From positions 186,001 through 250,000 of the forward strand of contig NZ_RCZB01000001.1 of NCBI RefSeq assembly GCF_006438785.1: a stretch of 64,000 bases of DNA. Direction: 5' to 3'. Positions within the stretch are counted from its first letter, which is position 1, and each line of letters begins with the position of its first letter. This DNA is from Rhodanobacter glycinis. GTDB taxonomy: Bacteria; Pseudomonadota; Gammaproteobacteria; Xanthomonadales; Rhodanobacteraceae. The translations under genes and the position numbers were made by a program. The notes beneath the pieces are model-generated. The model was not told the DNA's origin and did no database searches. It worked only from the letters and a program-made list of their open reading frames with translations. This document shows positions 25,602 to 51,965 of the stretch, in pieces.

Positions 25602-25710
25602 TGTGCCTCTGCGGCGAGTTGCTGTGCCGCGTGGGCGAACGATCGGTTTCTGAACATTGGCCGCGTTACAGTGGCGACATCGCCGCTGATGTCTTGTGGG
25701 GGTCGGTGTG

Positions 25711-27093
25711 ATGCGTTGGCTACGGCTGCTCTGGATGGCAGTTTTTTTCGCGATGCCGGTGCCGCTTGCATTCGCGGCCGGGCCAGTTGTCCCCGCGCGC
25801 GCGACAAACGCTGGCATGGTGGCGCAGATTGCGCTGGATGGCCCGATCGGCCCGGCCGCGGCAGAGTATTTCGATGATGCCTCGCAGCGTGCCGTGGCCG
25901 ATGGCGCGGTAGCGATCGTGCTGCGGCTGGACACGCCCGGCGGCCTGGCCGACTCGATGCGGCAGATCATCGCCAGCATGCTGGCGTGCAAGCTGCCGGT
26001 GCTGGTGTACGTCGCTCCGGGCGGTGCGCGGGCGGCTTCGGCGGGCACGTACATCCTGTATGCCGGGCAGATTGCCGCGATGGCACCGGCCACGCACGTT
26101 GGCGCGGCGACACCGGTGCCGCTTGGCGGTGCCACGCCGATGCAGGATGCCAACGACAAGCCAGCGGCGACGGGCTCGTCTGCAAAGGACAAACCAGCCG
26201 ATGGCGAGGATGCCGAGTCGCACAAGGTACTGAACGATTCCGTTGCCTACATGCGTTCGCTGGCGCAATTGCGCGGGCGCAACGTGCAATGGGCCGTACA
26301 GGCAGTGCGCGGCGCGGCCACGCTGACCGCCAGCGAAGCGGCGCAACAACACGCGATTGATTTCGTGGCGACGGACGTTGCTGATCTGCTGGCCAGGGCA
26401 GACGGTCGCAACGTGCAGGTGGGTGACCGCAGCGTCACGCTGCAGCTCAAGGGAGCATCCGTGCGTGACTACTCGCCGGGCGCACGCACGCGTTTCCTGG
26501 CAGTCATCACCAATCCCACCATCGCCTACCTTCTGCTGTTGGGTGGCATCTTCGGGTTGCTGCTGGAAGCGTTGCATCCCGGCGCGATGTTGCCGGGCAT
26601 CGTGGGCGGCATCTGTCTGCTGGTCGGCCTGTATGCCCTGCAACTGCTGCCGGTGAATTACGCCGGGCTGGCATTGATGGCGCTGGGGATCGGCCTGCTG
26701 GTAGCCGAAGCGGTCATTCCCAGCGTGGGCGCGTTTGGTGCTGGCGGACTGGTCGCGTTCGTGATCGGCTCGGTGATGCTGATGAAGACCGGGGTGCCGG
26801 GCTACGGCGTCAACCTCGGCGTCATCGGCGGCCTTGCCACCGGAGCTGCCGCCTTGCTGGCGCTGGTCGTCTGGCTGGTCTTCCGTTCGCGGCGCGCCCA
26901 TCAGGTCAACGGCGACGTCGCGATACTCACCGAGTTCGGCGAACTGCTGGAGCCGGTGAGTACTGGCGGCGAAGCCTGGGCGATGCTGCGCGGCGAGCGC
27001 TGGCGCGTGCGCTGCGACAGCGCATTGCCGGCCGGTGCGCGGGTGCGCGTGGTGCGACGGCAGGGACTGCTGCTGTGGGTTGAGCCAGTGTGA
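25711..27093 (+). CDS. nfeD: NfeD-family membrane serine protease (STOPP partner)
   Basis: A 460-aa protein from the ATG at 25711. The signal peptide is at 1-23. A ClpP-like Ser-Lys protease domain covers about 32-240, with the nucleophile S110 in GGARAASAGTYI and the probable general base K172 in HKVLNDSVAY. LDTPGGLADSMRQII is the usual helix. Four to five transmembrane helices (about 262-400) and a C-terminal OB-fold NfeD domain (about 400-460) follow. Long NfeD proteins work with an SPFH/stomatin partner, cutting its C-terminus in archaeal examples. The slipin gene follows 136 bases downstream, with a REP element in between. Confidence 0.92.
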   Translation: MRWLRLLWMAVFFAMPVPLAFAAGPVVPARATNAGMVAQIALDGPIGPAAAEYFDDASQRAVADGAVAIVLRLDTPGGLADSMRQIIASMLACKLPVLVYVAPGGARAASAGTYILYAGQIAAMAPATHVGAATPVPLGGATPMQDANDKPAATGSSAKDKPADGEDAESHKVLNDSVAYMRSLAQLRGRNVQWAVQAVRGAATLTASEAAQQHAIDFVATDVADLLARADGRNVQVGDRSVTLQLKGASVRDYSPGARTRFLAVITNPTIAYLLLLGGIFGLLLEALHPGAMLPGIVGGICLLVGLYALQLLPVNYAGLALMALGIGLLVAEAVIPSVGAFGAGGLVAFVIGSVMLMKTGVPGYGVNLGVIGGLATGAAALLALVVWLVFRSRRAHQVNGDVAILTEFGELLEPVSTGGEAWAMLRGERWRVRCDSALPAGARVRVVRRQGLLLWVEPV

Positions 27094-27111
27094 TTCATGC
27101 GCGGAATCTGT

Positions 27112-27186
27112 TTGTGGGAGTGACTTCAGTCGAGATGCTCCTGCTCCGCGGACAATCCTCGATCGCGGCTGAAGTCGCTCCCACAA
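27112..27186. repeat. REP-type inverted repeat (REPIN-like), 75 bp, copy 1
   Basis: TTGTGGGAGTGACTTCAGTC at the left end is the reverse complement, with two differences, of the right end. The element is 75 bp and closely matches another at 51891-51965. It lies between nfeD and the slipin gene. Confidence 0.8.
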
Positions 27187-27229
27187 GCGAATGGTTTGGC
27201 AATCTCACCGATTTACAGGAGATAGCGTC

Positions 27230-28006
27230 ATGTTCGGATTTTTCGGAATACTGGTAATCCTTGGTGTGTTGCTGCTGTTCTCCGCGGTGAAGATCCTGCC
27301 GGAGTACCAGCGCGGGGTGGTCCTGACCCTGGGCCGCTACACCGGGACCAAGGGCCCCGGGCTGGTGCTGCTGGTGCCGGCCGTACAGCGGATGATCCGG
27401 GTCGACCTGCGGGTGACCGTGATGGACGTGCCGCCGCAGGATGTGATCTCGCGCGACAACGTCTCGGTGCGCGTGAATGCGGTGGTCTATTTCCGTGTGG
27501 TGGAACCCGACAAATCCGTACTGCAGGTGGAGAACTTCCTGCAGGCCACCAGCCAACTGGCACAAACGCGTTTGCGCTCGGTGCTGGGCCAGCACGAGCT
27601 GGACGAGATCCTGTCGCAGCGCGATTCGATCAACCACACCTTGCAGACGATTCTCGACGAGGCCACCGACCCGTGGGGCATCAAGGTCGCCAACGTGGAG
27701 ATCAAGGACGTCGACCTCAACGAGACCATGGTGCGCGCGATCGCTCGCCAGGCCGAGGCCGAGCGCGAACGCCGCGCCAAGGTGATCCACGCCGAGGGCG
27801 AGATGCAGGCCGCCGAGAAATTGCGCGACGCCGCTGCAATGCTGTCGCAGCAGCCGCAGGCGCTGCAGCTGCGCTACCTGCAGACGCTGGCCGACATGTC
27901 CAACAACGGCAAATCCTCGACCATCGTGTTTCCGCTGCCGCTGGACCTGATCCGGCCATTGATGGAGGCGTTTCCGGCAAAGTCCGATCCGGCCTCGAAC
28001 CGCTGA
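27230..28006 (+). CDS. Slipin / stomatin-like SPFH protein
   Basis: A 258-aa protein from the ATG at 27230, preceded by CAGGAG. An N-terminal hairpin or transmembrane segment ([20 protein letters not shown]) is followed by the SPFH/band-7 domain: [40 protein letters not shown] strand, [15 protein letters not shown] and the helix [20 protein letters not shown] coiled coil rich in [17 protein letters not shown] and a C-terminal [10 protein letters not shown] follow. It is the membrane-microdomain scaffold that pairs with NfeD. It ends 65 bases before the borosin-type methyltransferase. Confidence 0.93.
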
Positions 28007-28071
28007 ACTGGCGCAGCCGTTCAAAGCGGGTGAATAATGCCGTTCACCTCCTGCCAAGACGAGCGATCACC

Positions 28072-28893
28072 ATGGATGCAGCACGTTCACCCGGAAGCCT
28101 GGTCTGCGTGGGCCTCGGCATGACCCTGGGCTCGCACCTCGGTCCGCTGGCGCGCAGCCATATCGAACAGGCGGACGTGGTGTTCGCCGGGCTCTCCGAC
28201 GGCATCGTCGAGATGTGGCTGAACCAGATGCACGCGGACGTGCGCAGCCTGCAGCCGTATTACCAGGAGGGCAAATCGCGGATGCAGACTTACCGGCAGA
28301 TGGTGGAAGCCATCCTGACCGAGGTACGCGCGGGCAAGCGGGTATGCGGCGTTTTCTATGGACACCCCGGCGTGTTCGCCTGGGCCCCGCACAAGTCGAT
28401 CGAGGTCGCCCGCAGCGAGGGTTATCCCGCACACATGGAGCCGGGCATTTCCGCCGAGGATTGCCTCTATGCGGACCTCGGCATCGACCCGGGCCGCTTC
28501 GGCTGCCAGCACTTCGAGGCCAGCCAGCTGCTGTTCTACCAGCGCCGGATCGATCCGACCGCCTACCTGGTGCTGTGGCAGGTGGGCCTGGTGGGCGACC
28601 AGTCGCTGGCCCGCTTCTCGACCGGCCCGGCCTACAAGCAGGTGCTGGTCGACGTGCTGGCGCGCGATTATCCGCTGGATCACGAGATCACCATCTACCG
28701 CAGCGCCACCTTGCCGATCCAGCAGGCACGGATCGAACGGGTGAAACTCGGCGACCTGCCGCAGGCGAAGGTCGAGATGGAGGATACGGTAGTGGTGCCT
28801 CCCGCTGCCCCGCTGCAGCCGAATGCGGAAATTCGCGCGCGGCTGGCCGAACTGGACCGGGCGGAGGGTGCAACTCCGGTGGGTATTCTGTGA
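28072..28893 (+). CDS. Borosin-type peptide alpha-N-methyltransferase (tetrapyrrole-methylase fold)
   Basis: A 273-aa protein. The N-terminal GSLVCVGLGMTLG is the SAM-binding glycine loop of the tetrapyrrole (corrin/porphyrin) methylase fold. It is closest in motif to the borosin enzymes (OphMA of fungi, SonM of Shewanella), not to CobA/CbiF. Matching signatures are YYQEGKSRMQTYRQM (63-77), GVFYGHPGVF (93-102), HMEPGISAEDCLYADL and the FEASQLL/LVLWQVGLVG region. R70 and Y74, and Y64 before them, align with the catalytic Tyr/Arg/Tyr set of OphMA, while the outer Tyr is Gln here. Unlike OphMA it has no fused clasp or core peptide. Two separate precursor-like genes follow. Predicted reaction: SAM-dependent methylation of backbone amides. 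The ribosome site is weak, so it may depend on upstream translation. Confidence 0.86.
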   Translation: MDAARSPGSLVCVGLGMTLGSHLGPLARSHIEQADVVFAGLSDGIVEMWLNQMHADVRSLQPYYQEGKSRMQTYRQMVEAILTEVRAGKRVCGVFYGHPGVFAWAPHKSIEVARSEGYPAHMEPGISAEDCLYADLGIDPGRFGCQHFEASQLLFYQRRIDPTAYLVLWQVGLVGDQSLARFSTGPAYKQVLVDVLARDYPLDHEITIYRSATLPIQQARIERVKLGDLPQAKVEMEDTVVVPPAAPLQPNAEIRARLAELDRAEGATPVGIL

Positions 28894-29035
28894 GCAGGTA
28901 GACAAGTTGGTGTTGGCGGCGTCTCTACGATGGTTTGGCGCAGGTTTGCGGTTGCCGGTGGCTCTTGGTGGTTCTTGCCGTCTGGCAGCCGAGCGACCTG
29001 CGCAATTCCCAACTCATCACTATCTGGAGAGCGCC

Positions 29036-29302
29036 ATGTCGAACATCATTGATTTCCTTGAAACCATCGGGCAAAACGCCAGCCTGCGCTATGCTTCGTC
29101 GGAGAAAATGCAGCATATGCTGGCCGACAGCCAGGTGGATAACGAGCTGCAGGAGGCTGTGCTGGCCGGGGATCAACAGCGGCTGTCGGAGTTGCTGAGG
29201 GCGAAGAATACCTGTTGCATGCTGATGCCGGGCCGAGTCAGCTGCCTGCTGATGTCCGGCATGAATGACGAAGATGAGATCCTTGGCGAACGGTGTGCCT
29301 GA
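29036..29302 (+). CDS. Putative split-borosin precursor peptide 1
   Basis: An 88-aa peptide from an ATG after GGAGA. The leader (1-56) opens MSNIIDFLETIGQNASLR and contains GDQQRLSELL, the D-F-L-x-x-x-G-Q-x-A-x-L ... G-D-x-x-x-L pattern that the separate precursor SonA of the Shewanella borosin system also shows (from memory). The C-terminal part has CCMLMPG (60-66) and an echo SCLLMSG (69-75), then an acidic stretch NDEDE and a tail ending ERCA. It aligns without gaps to precursor 2 over residues 1-66, with 30 identities. It lies 142 bases downstream of the methyltransferase. Product and methylation sites are unknown. Confidence 0.78.
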   Translation: MSNIIDFLETIGQNASLRYASSEKMQHMLADSQVDNELQEAVLAGDQQRLSELLRAKNTCCMLMPGRVSCLLMSGMNDEDEILGERCA

Positions 29303-29551
29303 GGTATTGACGGAGCATTGACCAGTGCCCAGGCTCGTTTGGGCGATGACCAACATGCCGTTGGGTGTCCATTGCAAAGGCAATCGTTTGGCGGATCGCT
29401 GATTCAATCCCAGCGCAGGGCTTGTGCCTTGCGCTGGGAGCAACGGAGGAAAGTGGTTTTTGTAAAATGCGCCTGACCGATATTTCGGTTATTGCGACAA
29501 GCAGCCGACACGATCAATAGCGAGACAGCCAATTATCAAGGGGGAGGGGAA
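29303..29551. other. Region between the two precursor genes, with hairpin and small palindrome
   Basis: The 249 bases hold no gene. CCCAGCGCAGG pairs with CCTTGCGCTGGG at 29409-29438 (one bulge), a possible attenuator. ACCGATATTTCGGT at 29476-29489 is a short palindrome with 5-bp arms before precursor 2. GC content is lower than in the genes. A second promoter here is possible. Confidence 0.4.
29409..29438 (+). terminator. Hairpin between precursor genes
   Basis: An 11-bp GC-rich stem with one bulged base and a 7-base loop. The nearest T-run (TTTTT) is about 20 bases further on, so it is more likely a partial attenuator than a full terminator. Confidence 0.4.
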
Positions 29552-29854
29552 ATGCCGAACGTCATCGATTTTCTTGAACGAGCGGGACAGGACGCGCTGT
29601 TGAGACGTGCATCGCACGTTGAAGTGGAGCTTGCGTTGGCAAATGCGCAGATCGAGCCGGAGCTGCGGTCGGCAATTCTCGACCGCGATATTTCGCGGCT
29701 GGAAGCATTGCTGGGGCGTGGGCAGCTACTGTGCATGCAGTTCCCCGGCAAGGAGGACGAAGAAGAGGGGGAGGAGGACGATACTGAGGAAAGCCCGTCA
29801 CGGGAAGGCGAGGAAATGGCTTTAAAGCCACGTTCTGCAGCACAGCTTCGGTAG
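29552..29854 (+). CDS. Putative split-borosin precursor peptide 2
   Basis: A 100-aa peptide with a strong ribosome site (GGGGGAGGGGA). The leader MPNVIDFLERAGQDALLRRA and the helix LEALLG match precursor 1. The common core position reads LCMQFPG (60-66), so C61, M62, P65 and G66 are shared. After it comes a very acidic run (KEDEEEGEEDDTEE) and a tail ending SAAQLR. There is no second core repeat. The GGDEF gene starts 8 bases after the stop, suggesting co-transcription. Confidence 0.76.
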   Translation: MPNVIDFLERAGQDALLRRASHVEVELALANAQIEPELRSAILDRDISRLEALLGRGQLLCMQFPGKEDEEEGEEDDTEESPSREGEEMALKPRSAAQLR

Positions 29855-29862
29855 TCTGACCG

Positions 29863-31668
29863 ATGCTTGGATCGGGCAGGTTGCGCGTGGTGTTCTTCGC
29901 CATTTCGATCCTGCTCGCTTCCTTGCTGGCAGGCACGCTCTCTGCGGCTGTGCCTGCAACTGTAGACCCGGAGCAATTGCTCAGGCGAGCAGACACCATC
30001 AAGACATCGAACCATGCGGAGTTCGCGGAACTCCTGAAGCAGCTTGATGGTGAGACGATAAAACTGTCCGCGGAGCAGCAGTGGTACCTGCGTTTTCTCG
30101 ATGCCTGGGAAGCCGCCTACAGTGGCGATTACAAGACCGCGACAACGTCGCTGAACGCCATAATGGATCAATCGCCCAGCACCACCCTGCGATTTCGCGC
30201 GGGTGCCACCTTGGTCAACATGCTCGGCATCGGACATCGCTACGAAGAAGCGTTCGCAAGACTGAGCCAGCTTCTCGATCAACTGCCGGAGGTTGACGAC
30301 AAGGAGGCGCGCTTCCAGGGGTTGGGCGAAGCTGCGCAGTTGTACATTGAAGCGGGCCAGTACGACCTTGCCTTGAATTACGCGAATCAGCTGCTCGCTG
30401 AAAACTCGACGGGAGAATATGCCTGCAAAGGCAGGTATCTGGTGCTCGATGCGCGTTATCGCAGCGGCAAGCTGCAGGATATCGCCCGGCAATTCCAGGA
30501 AGGCATCGATGTCTGCGTCGATGTCGGTGGAACCCTTTTCGCCAACGGGATTCGCGCGGACATGGCGAGGTTCGAGATCCAGCAGGGGCGCGCGGCAGCA
30601 GCCATCAACCTCTTGCAAAGGAACTATGCCGAGGTCTTGGGCGCCAAGTACCAGAGTTTGATTTCACAGTTCGACGCACTGCTGGCAATGGCGTACTGGA
30701 AAGACGGTCAGGTTGCTCTGGCGGAGCAATTCGCTCACGACGCGATCAACAGCAGCATCAGGGACGAATACACCGAATCCCTGACCACGGCCTACGAGCT
30801 GCTTTACCGGATCAAGCTGCAGCAACGTGCTTTTGCTGCCGCGCTTTCCTGGCACGAGAAGTACATGGCGGCCGACAAGGCCTACTTGAACGACGTCGGT
30901 ACGAAGGCGCTGGCGTACCAGGTTGTCAAGCAGCAGGTGCAGGCGAAAAAGCTCGAAGTCGAAACGCTGGGCAAGCAGAACCAGATACTGCAGCTGCAGC
31001 AGGCGCTGGACAGGAAAGCTTCCGAGACGAGTCGGTTGTATATCGCGTTGCTGCTCAGCGTGCTGGTCTTCATCGCGCTATGGGCTTACCGGATAAAACT
31101 TTCCCAACTGCGTTTCATGCGGTTGGCGCGTCGTGACGGACTTACGGATATCTTCAACCGGCAGCATTTTCTCAACGAGGCCGAGCTGCAGTTGCAGTAT
31201 TGCCGCCGGGCCTCGCGCGATGCCTGTCTGGTGCTGATCGACCTCGATCATTTCAAGGCCATCAACGACACTCACGGCCATGCCGTGGGTGATCGTGTGC
31301 TGCAGCGCGCTGTCGGTGCCTGCAAGGCGCATCTGCGCTCGACCGACGTCTTTGGCCGCCTCGGCGGCGAGGAGTTCGGCATCCTGCTGCCCGAGTGCTC
31401 GCTGGAGCAGGTGCTGGCACGCGCCGACCAGCTTCGCGCGGCGGTCGCCTCGGCAGCGTCCGATGGAGACGATCTGGGCATCCAGATTTCCGCCAGCTTT
31501 GGCGTTGCCTGCTCGATCCGTTCAGGCTACGAGTTGCACTTGCTGCTGGTGCATGCCGACGAAGCGCTGTATCGGGCCAAGCGCGAAGGCCGCAACCGGG
31601 TCAGGGTCAGCGACGATGGTGCGGAAGCGTGCCACGGCGCCGAGGTGGTCTCCATCGAGAGGGTCTGA
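29863..31668 (+). CDS. Periplasmic-sensor GGDEF diguanylate cyclase with TPR-like domain
   Basis: A 601-aa protein. A signal anchor at about 8-29 is followed by an all-helical TPR-like sensor domain (about 35-350), a coiled coil (about 352-388), a transmembrane helix at about 391-409 and a cytosolic GGDEF domain (about 420-590). The active-site loop is GGEEF (501-505) and the I-site RSTD lies five residues before it. LVLIDLDHFKAINDTHGHAVGD is the usual metal/GTP region. It should make cyclic di-GMP in response to a periplasmic cue. Its start lies 8 bases after precursor 2. Confidence 0.93.
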   Translation: MLGSGRLRVVFFAISILLASLLAGTLSAAVPATVDPEQLLRRADTIKTSNHAEFAELLKQLDGETIKLSAEQQWYLRFLDAWEAAYSGDYKTATTSLNAIMDQSPSTTLRFRAGATLVNMLGIGHRYEEAFARLSQLLDQLPEVDDKEARFQGLGEAAQLYIEAGQYDLALNYANQLLAENSTGEYACKGRYLVLDARYRSGKLQDIARQFQEGIDVCVDVGGTLFANGIRADMARFEIQQGRAAAAINLLQRNYAEVLGAKYQSLISQFDALLAMAYWKDGQVALAEQFAHDAINSSIRDEYTESLTTAYELLYRIKLQQRAFAAALSWHEKYMAADKAYLNDVGTKALAYQVVKQQVQAKKLEVETLGKQNQILQLQQALDRKASETSRLYIALLLSVLVFIALWAYRIKLSQLRFMRLARRDGLTDIFNRQHFLNEAELQLQYCRRASRDACLVLIDLDHFKAINDTHGHAVGDRVLQRAVGACKAHLRSTDVFGRLGGEEFGILLPECSLEQVLARADQLRAAVASAASDGDDLGIQISASFGVACSIRSGYELHLLLVHADEALYRAKREGRNRVRVSDDGAEACHGAEVVSIERV

Positions 31669-31693
31669 TGAGTCCTGGCAGGCCGGCCATGCA

Positions 31694-34453
31694 TCATGGG
31701 GAGTCCTTGACCGTGGCCTTGGCCGGTGGCATGTCCAGCTTGTCGAAGTTGACGATGGCGTTGAACACCAGCGGGTAACTGCCGATGGTTTCGCCGCGCC
31801 AGATCGGGTTGCTGGCGAACAGCAGCACGTGGCCCTTGCCGTAGCGGGCGTCCACCACGGCGGCGCGTTCGGCCATCTCGTCGCCGCTGTCGAGCAGGCC
31901 GGAGATCAACAGGTTCTTGGCATCGGCGTAGCGCAGGATCACCTGCGGGCGCTGCCCGACCGGAATGGCCCACGGGTTGTTGCGCATCTGTTCGGCATTC
32001 AGCGGCAACGCCTGCCACGGCTTGACGTCGGGCAGGGCCGGTGCCTCGATGGATGCGCGTCCTTCGGGTGTATCCGTGTCATGCGGGCCGCCACGGCCAG
32101 TCGGACGCTGGAAGTCCTTCGCGTTCGGCAGGCCGTGGTCGCCAGTGATCTGGTTGGACACGGTGAACGACTGGCCGGCGGCGCTGTACAGGGCCAGCTC
32201 GTCGCGGGTGTAGGTGGCGGCGATCGGGCTGCGGCGATCGACGAACTTCGCCTGCAGCACGCTGCCGACGACCTTGAGCTTGCTGCTTGGCGTGATGAAC
32301 ACGCCCGGTGCCATGCCGACGTCGATGGCGAAGCTCGCGGTATCCTCGGCGGTGATCAGCAGGCCGCCGGTTTGCACGAACCGCTTGAGACTGGCGACGC
32401 CGCTGGCGCCGAGGCCGGGACGGATGTCGTCGGTCGAGTCGATGTGACCGAGGTTGGGTGTCAGCGCCGTGGTTTTCCATGGCATCGGATTGCCCCACAT
32501 CGGCAGGCCGTCGACGATCTGCTGTGTGCTGGTGCCACCGATCGGGCCGAACAGGATCACGTCGTACTTCGCGCGCAGGTTGCCGGCCTTCGCCACGTCC
32601 TGGGTGCTGATGTAGTCGTACGGCACCTGCAGCTTGTCCAGCGCCATTCGCCACCAACCTTCGGTCTGGGTACCCAGCCAGGTGTGCATCATCGCGATGC
32701 GCGGCAGCTTCGCGCGTGGCATGTCCAGCGCGGCAAGGCCCTGCGGCACGGTGATGGACTCAAGCACGCTCATCGGCGCCTTGAGGATCGCGTTGTCGGT
32801 GACGCGCACGACCTCCACGTCGAACAGGTCGCCCATCGACCAGCCGGTGTCGTCGTAGGGATGCTGCTGCGGATCTTTCGGCGACCAGTACTGGCGATCA
32901 AGCAAGGTGTCGACGATGCGCGAATACGGCTGGTCCATGCGCACCACGTAGCTACCGGCGGCGAAGGTCCGCGTTTTGGCCTTCTTGTCGTCGTCCTGCT
33001 TCGGCAACGTCACCGTGACCGGCGCGCTGCTGCGGCTGACCTCGGCATGCTGCAACTGCAGGATCCGCAGCAGCTGGGCGCGCGAGCCGCTGCGCTTGTC
33101 GTCGACCGGAAACACGTAGGCGGCCGGGCCGGCCTGCTGCGGCTTCTCGATCGAGCGCTTGCTCTTGAGGTAGAAGTTCTTCAGGAACTGCTGACCGTTG
33201 CCGGAGAAATAATTCAGCGCGGTGAGCAGGCCGGTCTGCTGGTAGTTGTTGTTGTTGCGCTGCGACCACAGCACGGTCGGCAGGGGCGGGTTGGGCTTGT
33301 ACCAGGTGCGCTGGTACTCGGCGGGTTCGAGAATGCGCTGCACGGTGTCGGCGCCGTCGTTGCCGAAGGTTTCGTACAGCCGGCTGATGCCGTTGTGCAT
33401 GGCGGCGATGAACATCAGGTAGCCCGGGCTCCACGTATCGAAGTCGCCATGGGTGAACACGCCGGGCATGCCGAGCGTGGTCATCTGCTGCACGTTGTCC
33501 CAGCCGAGCTGCTGCCACTCGCCAGTGAGGATCGGGTCGATCCACGCGTTGTACGGGCCATCGCCCACGGTGTTGTCGTACAGGAACGGCACCGATTCAT
33601 GCAGGTCGTGCAGCACCTGCGCGTGCCAGCCGACGAAGGTGTCGGCCACGTTGCGGGTGAGGTTGAGCGTCATCCCCATCGCATCGCGGTTGTTGTCGTG
33701 CGCCACGTAGTGGCCCCAGTACAGCAGCGGCGGATAGCTCTGACCCGGGTGCGCCAGGTGCCAGTTGTACAGGTCGACCATGCGGTCACGACCATCGACC
33801 TCGACGATTGGCGTGATCAGCGTGACCACGTGAGAGCGGATGTGCTGGATGTACGGCGCATCGTCCACGGCCAGACGATAGGCCAGCTCCATCAACGCGG
33901 TGGGCGAGCCGGTTTCGGTGGAGTGGATGGTGCCGGTGATGTAGTAGACCGGCGTGGATTGCGCGATCAGCTGGTCGGCCGTGGCGTCGTCCATCTTGAT
34001 GCTGCGCGGATCGCCCAGCTTGGCCAGACGCGCCTTGTTCGCGTCGATATCGGCCAGCACGCTTTCGTCGGCGATCGCCACCGCGATCATCTCGCGGCCT
34101 TCCTCGCTCTTGCCGATCGAGAACACCTTCACCCGCGGACTGGCTGCGGCCAGCGCACGGAAGTAGCGGTAGACGTCGGCCGAGTAGGGCAGGTAGTTCG
34201 GCGCGCCGGAAATGTGCCCGAGTACTTTCTCCGGCGTCGGCACGCTGGCGGAGGCGGGCAGGTAGTCGGTCAGCGGCGAGTTGAACGAGGGATCGGTGGT
34301 GAACTTCAGGATCTGCGCGGTATAGACCTGGTCGATCGGCTGGCCCGGCGCGCGGGCGTAATCCGTGGGTCCACCGGTAGCGGTCGCCGCATGAGTGCCG
34401 AGGGTGCCCAGCGCCAGCAGGGCGCTCAAGGAAATCCGGATGGACATGTGCAT
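31694..34453 (-). CDS. Secreted M14-family metallocarboxypeptidase
   Basis: A 919-aa protein from the ATG at 34453 after GGGGAAGG. The open frame extends upstream without support. The signal peptide is at about 3-22. The M14 domain covers about 70-400, with the zinc motif H177-x2-E180 in ITGTIHSTETGSPTAL and IGKSEEGREMIAVAIAD before it. A long C-terminal part (about 520-919) resembles a glutamine-amidotransferase-like/beta domain seen in large bacterial M14 proteins. It probably trims peptides or amidated substrates outside the cytoplasm. It converges with the GGDEF gene. Confidence 0.88.
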   Translation of the reverse strand: MHMSIRISLSALLALGTLGTHAATATGGPTDYARAPGQPIDQVYTAQILKFTTDPSFNSPLTDYLPASASVPTPEKVLGHISGAPNYLPYSADVYRYFRALAAASPRVKVFSIGKSEEGREMIAVAIADESVLADIDANKARLAKLGDPRSIKMDDATADQLIAQSTPVYYITGTIHSTETGSPTALMELAYRLAVDDAPYIQHIRSHVVTLITPIVEVDGRDRMVDLYNWHLAHPGQSYPPLLYWGHYVAHDNNRDAMGMTLNLTRNVADTFVGWHAQVLHDLHESVPFLYDNTVGDGPYNAWIDPILTGEWQQLGWDNVQQMTTLGMPGVFTHGDFDTWSPGYLMFIAAMHNGISRLYETFGNDGADTVQRILEPAEYQRTWYKPNPPLPTVLWSQRNNNNYQQTGLLTALNYFSGNGQQFLKNFYLKSKRSIEKPQQAGPAAYVFPVDDKRSGSRAQLLRILQLQHAEVSRSSAPVTVTLPKQDDDKKAKTRTFAAGSYVVRMDQPYSRIVDTLLDRQYWSPKDPQQHPYDDTGWSMGDLFDVEVVRVTDNAILKAPMSVLESITVPQGLAALDMPRAKLPRIAMMHTWLGTQTEGWWRMALDKLQVPYDYISTQDVAKAGNLRAKYDVILFGPIGGTSTQQIVDGLPMWGNPMPWKTTALTPNLGHIDSTDDIRPGLGASGVASLKRFVQTGGLLITAEDTASFAIDVGMAPGVFITPSSKLKVVGSVLQAKFVDRRSPIAATYTRDELALYSAAGQSFTVSNQITGDHGLPNAKDFQRPTGRGGPHDTDTPEGRASIEAPALPDVKPWQALPLNAEQMRNNPWAIPVGQRPQVILRYADAKNLLISGLLDSGDEMAERAAVVDARYGKGHVLLFASNPIWRGETIGSYPLVFNAIVNFDKLDMPPAKATVKDSP

Positions 34454-51890: not shown

Positions 51891-51965
51891 TTGTAGGAGC
51901 GACTTCAGTCGCGATTGCTCTTCGCGCTACATGCCAAGGCATCGCGACTGAAGTCGCTCCCACAA
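51891..51965. repeat. REP-type inverted repeat (REPIN-like), 75 bp, copy 2
   Basis: TTGTAGGAGCGACTTCAGTC at the left and GACTGAAGTCGCTCCCACAA at the right form 25-bp arms with one mismatch around a 25-base spacer. The length equals copy 1 at 27112-27186. It begins 14 bases after the RIO kinase stop and ends five bases from the FKBP stop, so it may also act as the terminator of both convergent genes. Confidence 0.85.

Follow-up and report, generated by a model that had tools for sequence, protein, structure and literature searches.

The stretch of the Rhodanobacter glycinis genome analysed here (contig NZ_RCZB01000001.1, positions 186,001 to 250,000 of the forward strand; 64,000 nucleotides, referred to below as the window and numbered from its first letter) carries a gene for a methyltransferase resembling the borosin enzyme SonM, two genes for small precursor peptides (pep1 and pep2) and, directly behind these, a gene for a predicted membrane protein that joins a tetratricopeptide repeat (TPR) solenoid to a GGDEF cyclase domain. 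The assignment of the enzyme and the two peptides to a split borosin gene set is supported by the sequence of the enzyme, its active-site residues, a precursor profile and the predicted fold of the pep1 leader. We further propose, with roughly even confidence, that this set is functionally joined to the TPR-GGDEF protein, so that the N-methylated peptide would be the ligand of a cognate TPR receptor that sets the level of cyclic di-GMP (c-di-GMP). That the methylated peptide is a signal read by the sensor appears likely because the precursor-sensor pair persists in nearly all of the relatives examined within the family Rhodanobacteraceae.

The methyltransferase gene (28072..28893, + strand) encodes a protein of 273 residues with the PF00590 fold and a predicted SonM-like peptide backbone α-N-methyltransferase activity. 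An initial annotation, made from the letters of the sequence, had described a borosin enzyme of tetrapyrrole-methylase fold followed by two precursors; the fold is confirmed, the three open reading frames (ORFs) lie where it placed them, and the enzyme motifs that it quoted, YYQEGKSRMQTY, GVFYGHPGVF and MEPGISAEDC, are all present. When the enzyme was searched against all PDB sequences, each of the 25 matches at E<=0.001 was a borosin methyltransferase, with SonM (4.2e-78) and SonM variants at the top, followed by dbOphM, MroMA and OphMA; cobalamin enzymes were absent from these matches. The enzyme and SonM are similar in length and identical at 129 of 251 aligned residues. Twelve of the 15 SonM active-site and clamp positions are kept, including Y58, R67, Y71, Y93, F99, E146, W166 and L176 (Y58, R67, Y71, Y93, F99 and W166 of SonM being Y64, R70, Y74, Y96, F102 and W169 of the enzyme), and the three departures are R68 to Met, Q178 to Arg and L34 to Gly. 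Taken on its sequence, the enzyme is thus supported as a separately encoded SonM homologue of the Type IV split borosin kind, with methylation itself predicted.

If the enzyme were instead a methylase of the cobalamin or siroheme pathway, the small ORFs behind it would be incidental. The common PF00590 fold and weak NCBIfam matches to YabN, cobJ, CysG and others speak for this, but no curated equivalog cut-off is reached: the best score, for YabN, is 41.8 bits against a cut-off of 525, and that for cobJ is 25.5 bits against 246. Since, in addition, all PDB matches at E<=0.001 are borosin enzymes and in 76 of 77 loci the enzyme has precursor genes next to it, we rejected a cobalamin or siroheme identity, to which we attach almost no probability. 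The separation from cobalamin methylases drawn in the initial annotation accordingly holds in a comparison of similarity, as opposed to a tree, and its remark that no vitamin B12 or siroheme genes lie nearby is borne out for the flanking genes that were profiled (NfeD, SPFH/Band 7 and GGDEF).

The first precursor, pep1 (29036..29302, +), has 88 residues and consists of a leader predicted to form a five-helix borosin binding domain (residues 1-53; 29036..29194) and two tandem Cys/Met core repeats, CCMLMPG (residues 60-66; 29213..29233, +) and SCLLMSG (residues 69-75; 29240..29260, +), which the initial annotation had overlooked together with the TPR-GGDEF gene. The second, pep2 (29552..29854, +; 100 residues), has the same leader, a single putative core, LLCMQFPG (residues 59-66; 29726..29749, +; extent inferred), and an acidic tail. 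In both peptides a hydrophobic core, the exact limits of which are putative, stands right behind the leader. The two are paralogous, as had been noted, with 43% identity, and the SonA-type leader claimed for both is recovered by a precursor profile that matches SonA at 3.8e-6; because it was built from motif-picked ORFs of the same loci, this profile is tuned to the loci examined. The predicted fold of the leader, modelled for pep1, agrees with the borosin binding domain, and the Foldseek E-values for this 88-residue model are weak (best 0.96). As a single sequence, pep1 gave weak PDB matches only, with SonA at 0.37 alongside tankyrases, and pep2 gave none in the same database, so that significance comes from the profile alone. 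The relatives of pep1 include 31 proteins at 8.1e-19 or better. Cys/Met-rich cores are found in pep1 and in many clade A relatives, most clade B cores are without Cys, and acidic tails follow most cores. For a test of the core repeats, 13 distinct pairs were drawn from those precursors, 26 out of 33, in which both repeats contain Cys; P0025-P0031 were left out because their cores are single, degenerate, cut or devoid of Cys, and shared descent inflates the result.

Across the whole genome the precursor profile yielded three strong matches (<=1.6e-28; next 0.195), namely the two precursors of the window and that of a second, paralogous cluster outside it (G000:C1:140000-156000, L084). Together with the relatives of pep1 and the spread of the enzyme through the family, this shows that the gene set is no product of chance. 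This cluster holds one precursor (MSDTIELL...), one TPR-GGDEF protein and a methyltransferase 78% identical to that of the window. Elsewhere precursors have expanded, with five (L011) and seven (L058) precursor-like ORFs behind one methyltransferase, and one ORF with a borosin leader (L172:5643-6194) continues in frame into response-regulator-like sequence, as a fusion or through an overlapping start.

The TPR-GGDEF gene (29863..31668, +) begins 8 nucleotides past the end of pep2 and encodes 601 residues: an N-terminal hydrophobic segment (1-34), a predicted TPR solenoid that is the putative peptide sensor (residues 36-320; 29968..30822, +), a long helix (324-423) and a GGDEF domain (residues 423-579; 31129..31599, +). 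This order is seen in a confident structural model (mean predicted local distance difference test, pLDDT, 89). A second, transmembrane-like hydrophobic segment (388-414) lies inside the long helix, the GGEEF motif is intact, and an RxxD inhibitory-site motif stands five residues ahead of it. By sequence we predict a membrane protein making c-di-GMP. The predicted topology would place the solenoid outside the cytoplasm if the first hydrophobic segment serves as signal peptide or anchor and the stretch 388-414 crosses the membrane. Two solenoid cysteines, C188 and C218, are shared by all 50 TPR-GGDEF proteins that were aligned and possibly form a disulfide if the domain is periplasmic. Pfam TPR models match at most 24 of these 50 proteins (TPR_14). 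In Foldseek the 50 matches listed for the sensor are GGDEF-type entries, and its TPR matches come from VIA-align, where some 300 residues of the predicted sensor can be aligned with Rap structures. The model likens the sensor to the Rap/Phr TPR pheromone receptors of Bacillus and its phages, in fold only; Rap proteins are cytoplasmic and are not known to be joined to a membrane cyclase, and Phr peptides are not known to be modified. Among 32 GGDEF matches in this genome, only two carry this sensor at 1e-30, and both stand beside a precursor and a methyltransferase.

The evidence that carries the proposed link is the pairing of these genes within Rhodanobacteraceae. Relatives of the enzyme are found in 128 of 197 family genomes at E<=1e-20. 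Comparison of the match lists for enzyme (1e-20) and sensor (1e-30) gives 122 genomes with both, six with the enzyme only, one with the sensor only and 68 with neither. From the 157 family loci the best 80 were kept, three of which (L013, L016, L070) end before the precursor region; enzyme, precursor(s) and TPR-GGDEF protein occur together in 76 of the 77 assessable loci. The sole exception, L069 (L069:1117-2122), has the enzyme and the TPR-GGDEF protein, but the ORF that precedes the cyclase matches the precursor profile only weakly (14.8 bits), which suggests that the precursor was lost or is very divergent. A larger set of 106 full-length TPR-GGDEF proteins was assembled from the family loci, the two clusters of this genome and 20 fetched TPR-GGDEF loci, with ORFs below 480 residues dropped as truncated. 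In this set a precursor lies directly upstream of 100 proteins, within 60 nucleotides in 99 of the 100 pairs; four of the six unpaired proteins are additional cyclases downstream of a paired one, and the other two, at L181 and L191, are without a precursor.

This pairing bears on a rival account, in which the borosin is secreted as an ordinary product, such as a thiol or thioether metal binder or an antibiotic. The TPR-GGDEF protein would then respond to another stimulus and do no more than time production or the matching lifestyle, the two being linked by regulation. The Cys/Met-rich cores of pep1 and many clade A relatives would suit such a product, the parts of PMC8429565 drawn on here state no function for SonA, and the binding of peptide to sensor is itself a prediction. 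Against it, the precursor and sensor keep together even where the methyltransferase is not beside them: the 20 fetched loci were strong TPR-GGDEF matches hand-picked away from listed methyltransferase places. Two of these 20 loci (L192, L193) had a methyltransferase, and 16 of the other 18, which have none in the fetched stretch, retain the precursor. Precursor-cyclase pairs also occur twice behind a single enzyme, in seven loci, and the sensor is retained while its output swaps, as described below. A shared metal role is unlikely, because most clade B cores lack Cys, and we consider the secreted-product explanation as a whole rather improbable.

If the peptide is instead the ligand of the sensor, core and sensor might be expected to change together. 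Over the 100 precursor-sensor pairs, core distance and sensor distance correlate with r 0.76; after removal of leader and GGDEF distances the correlation is 0.41 overall, 0.49 in clade A and 0.36 in clade B (permutation p 0.001 each). In the reverse test, of core against GGDEF domain after leader and sensor distances are taken out, the values are 0.28, 0.39 and 0.09, respectively. These partial Mantel tests leave phylogeny in, and the covariation agrees with ligand-receptor change without being proof of it.

Alongside the observed gene order, conserved pairing, homology and active-site motifs, we propose the following scheme. Like SonA on SonM, the leader would dock on the dimeric methyltransferase and feed the Cys/Met-rich core into the S-adenosylmethionine (SAM) site, where methylation would proceed from the N- to the C-terminus. 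A putative protease would then release the core, which would reach the periplasm by a putative export route and bind the predicted periplasmic TPR solenoid, and the signal would travel along the long helix through the membrane to the GGDEF domain, subject to RxxD feedback and with a response in an inferred direction. Encoded 8 nucleotides ahead of the sensor gene, pep2 would be the cognate ligand, and pep1 a second, two-core ligand. Backbone N-methylation raises the protease stability and membrane permeability of peptides.

Several observations weigh against this scheme. Inspection by eye revealed no signal sequence in the precursors, and no dedicated protease or exporter was recognised beside the genes, where no systematic search for one was made. 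The window's own TPR copy falls below every Pfam TPR model at 0.001 (TPR_19 at 0.0011), and the TPR likeness is generic, subunits of the anaphase-promoting complex (APC/C) outscoring Rap in VIA-align (26.5 vs 23.7). Six family genomes hold the enzyme without the sensor at 1e-30, and L181 and L191, which are without a methyltransferase, are also the loci without a precursor. Shared descent confounds the covariation, in which the core tracks the GGDEF domain too: when both are given the same number of columns, the partial r is 0.38 for the sensor vs 0.31 for the GGDEF domain overall and 0.46 vs 0.40 in clade A, a clear separation being confined to clade B (0.34 vs 0.13). Outside the family, five of seven methyltransferase loci from a class-wide draw lack such a sensor, and 11 of 40 selected loci lack a profile-detected precursor, an output domain or both.

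The lack of a recognised exporter or protease would also suit a precursor that stays in the cytoplasm as a small acidic protein and, modified or not, regulates the cyclase inside the cell by direct binding, without a free peptide being formed. The acidic tails and the near abutment of the genes (the 8-nucleotide gap here and the close spacing of 99 of 100 pairs) fit this possibility, as does the regulation of the TPR-GGDEF protein RcbB by RcbA through protein contact (PMC12282931). The hydrophobic segments that flank the solenoid, and with them its predicted extracytoplasmic placement, speak against it, and we judge it distinctly unlikely.

Returning to the peptide as ligand of the sensor, we asked how far the arrangement extends beyond the family. 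The enzyme was found in nine of 369 genomes in the class-wide draw (1e-20), and two of the seven loci outside the family have both precursor and sensor. At 1e-30 it was found in 70 of 295 genomes of another order of the class and in four of 19 of a third. From these, 40 loci (37 from the second order and three from the third) were chosen by best score and family spread, not at random; a recognised precursor is present in 31, a cyclase or kinase in 37 and both in 29. Eight loci (among L093-L173) with 66.5-81% identity to SonM each hold a precursor followed by a GGDEF ORF, and in L156 the cyclase is divided over two ORFs. The output varies: L093 has one sensor on a hybrid histidine kinase and another on a cyclase, and L170, L171 and L172 have the sensor on kinases. 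The sensor regions of the cyclase and kinase types match each other, and a sensor that is kept while its output is exchanged would be expected if the ligand is shared. In a separate case, an ORF with a cyclase-type TPR sensor region (L167:8351-10204) showed neither GGDEF nor kinase, a possible third output. Two distant methyltransferase loci, L097 and L098, are without a TPR sensor, and their downstream gene resembles, as read from its sequence, a major facilitator superfamily (MFS) transporter; their borosins are perhaps exported products.

Tentatively, and with somewhat less than even confidence, we generalise that gammaproteobacterial split borosins constitute a peptide-pheromone system, in which an N-methylated ribosomal peptide and its periplasmic TPR receptor form a mobile cassette with a cyclase or hybrid histidine kinase as output, one enzyme methylating in trans. 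If true, this would parallel Rap/Phr signalling in Gram-negative bacteria by way of a second messenger, would provide a function for SonA-type borosins and would tie backbone N-methylation to c-di-GMP lifestyle control in a widespread bacterial group. The chemistry of bacterial split borosins is well studied and, in the literature covered, their biological role is unstated; a precursor nearly always beside one TPR sensor, even with no methyltransferase nearby, offers a testable hypothesis for it.

Split borosins already form a recognised class (PMC8429565, PMC11285071), so that the claim of an undescribed system, made in the initial annotation, holds only in part: the enzyme-peptide pair is a new member of that class, and the unusual feature, the pairing with a sensor, falls beyond the region annotated. 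Like the Type IV system SonM/SonA of Shewanella oneidensis (PMC8429565), the present one has a separate SAM methyltransferase, a precursor with a five-helix leader (predicted here) and the main active-site residues. It differs in its cores, which here end in P-G and carry acidic tails, unlike the SonA type, and in having two precursors, one with two tandem cores, as well as a second paralogous cluster in the genome. Unlike the fused fungal OphMA and dbOphMA, enzyme and substrate are separate genes. RcbA/RcbB of Vibrio vulnificus is likewise a two-gene unit with a TPR-GGDEF cyclase, in which the TPR part of RcbB represses the cyclase and RcbA relieves the repression (PMC12282931). RcbA, however, is itself a TPR protein and not the precursor of a ribosomally synthesized and post-translationally modified peptide (RiPP), whereas the upstream gene here encodes a borosin-leader precursor, and the parts of that paper drawn on mention no methyltransferase. 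The borosin-GGDEF association is not wholly new, because the Figure 1 legend of PMC11395268 lists a GGDEF-containing domain among borosin architectures; the part drawn on specifies no borosin type and proposes no receptor. Titles and abstract openings contained no proposal of a borosin receptor, a scope outside which the surveys Imani 2022, Cho 2022 and Lee 2024 fall. The methyltransferase-independent precursor-sensor cassette, the output swap and the two-core precursor are absent from the literature covered.

Around these genes, those for NfeD and SPFH/Band 7 proteins lie directly upstream of the methyltransferase (window 25696-28006). They adjoin the enzyme in several Rhodanobacter loci only and, because they are not beside it in most loci, we treated them as neighbours and rejected them as cluster members. 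Between pep1 and pep2 lies a 14-bp inverted repeat, 93% complementary (29408..29439, +), that would form an RNA hairpin (z -4.7); scans of 27900-31900 for intrinsic terminators and sigma-70 promoters found nothing, and the hairpin was not picked as a terminator. A c-di-GMP riboswitch or other known RNA was likewise rejected, no Rfam match reaching the gathering score in the window. Finally, two inverted pairs of a 20-mer of the repetitive extragenic palindrome (REP)-like type TGTGGGAGYGACTTCAGTCG were found at window positions 27113-27185 and 51892-51964, with identical spacing and with none expected by chance.
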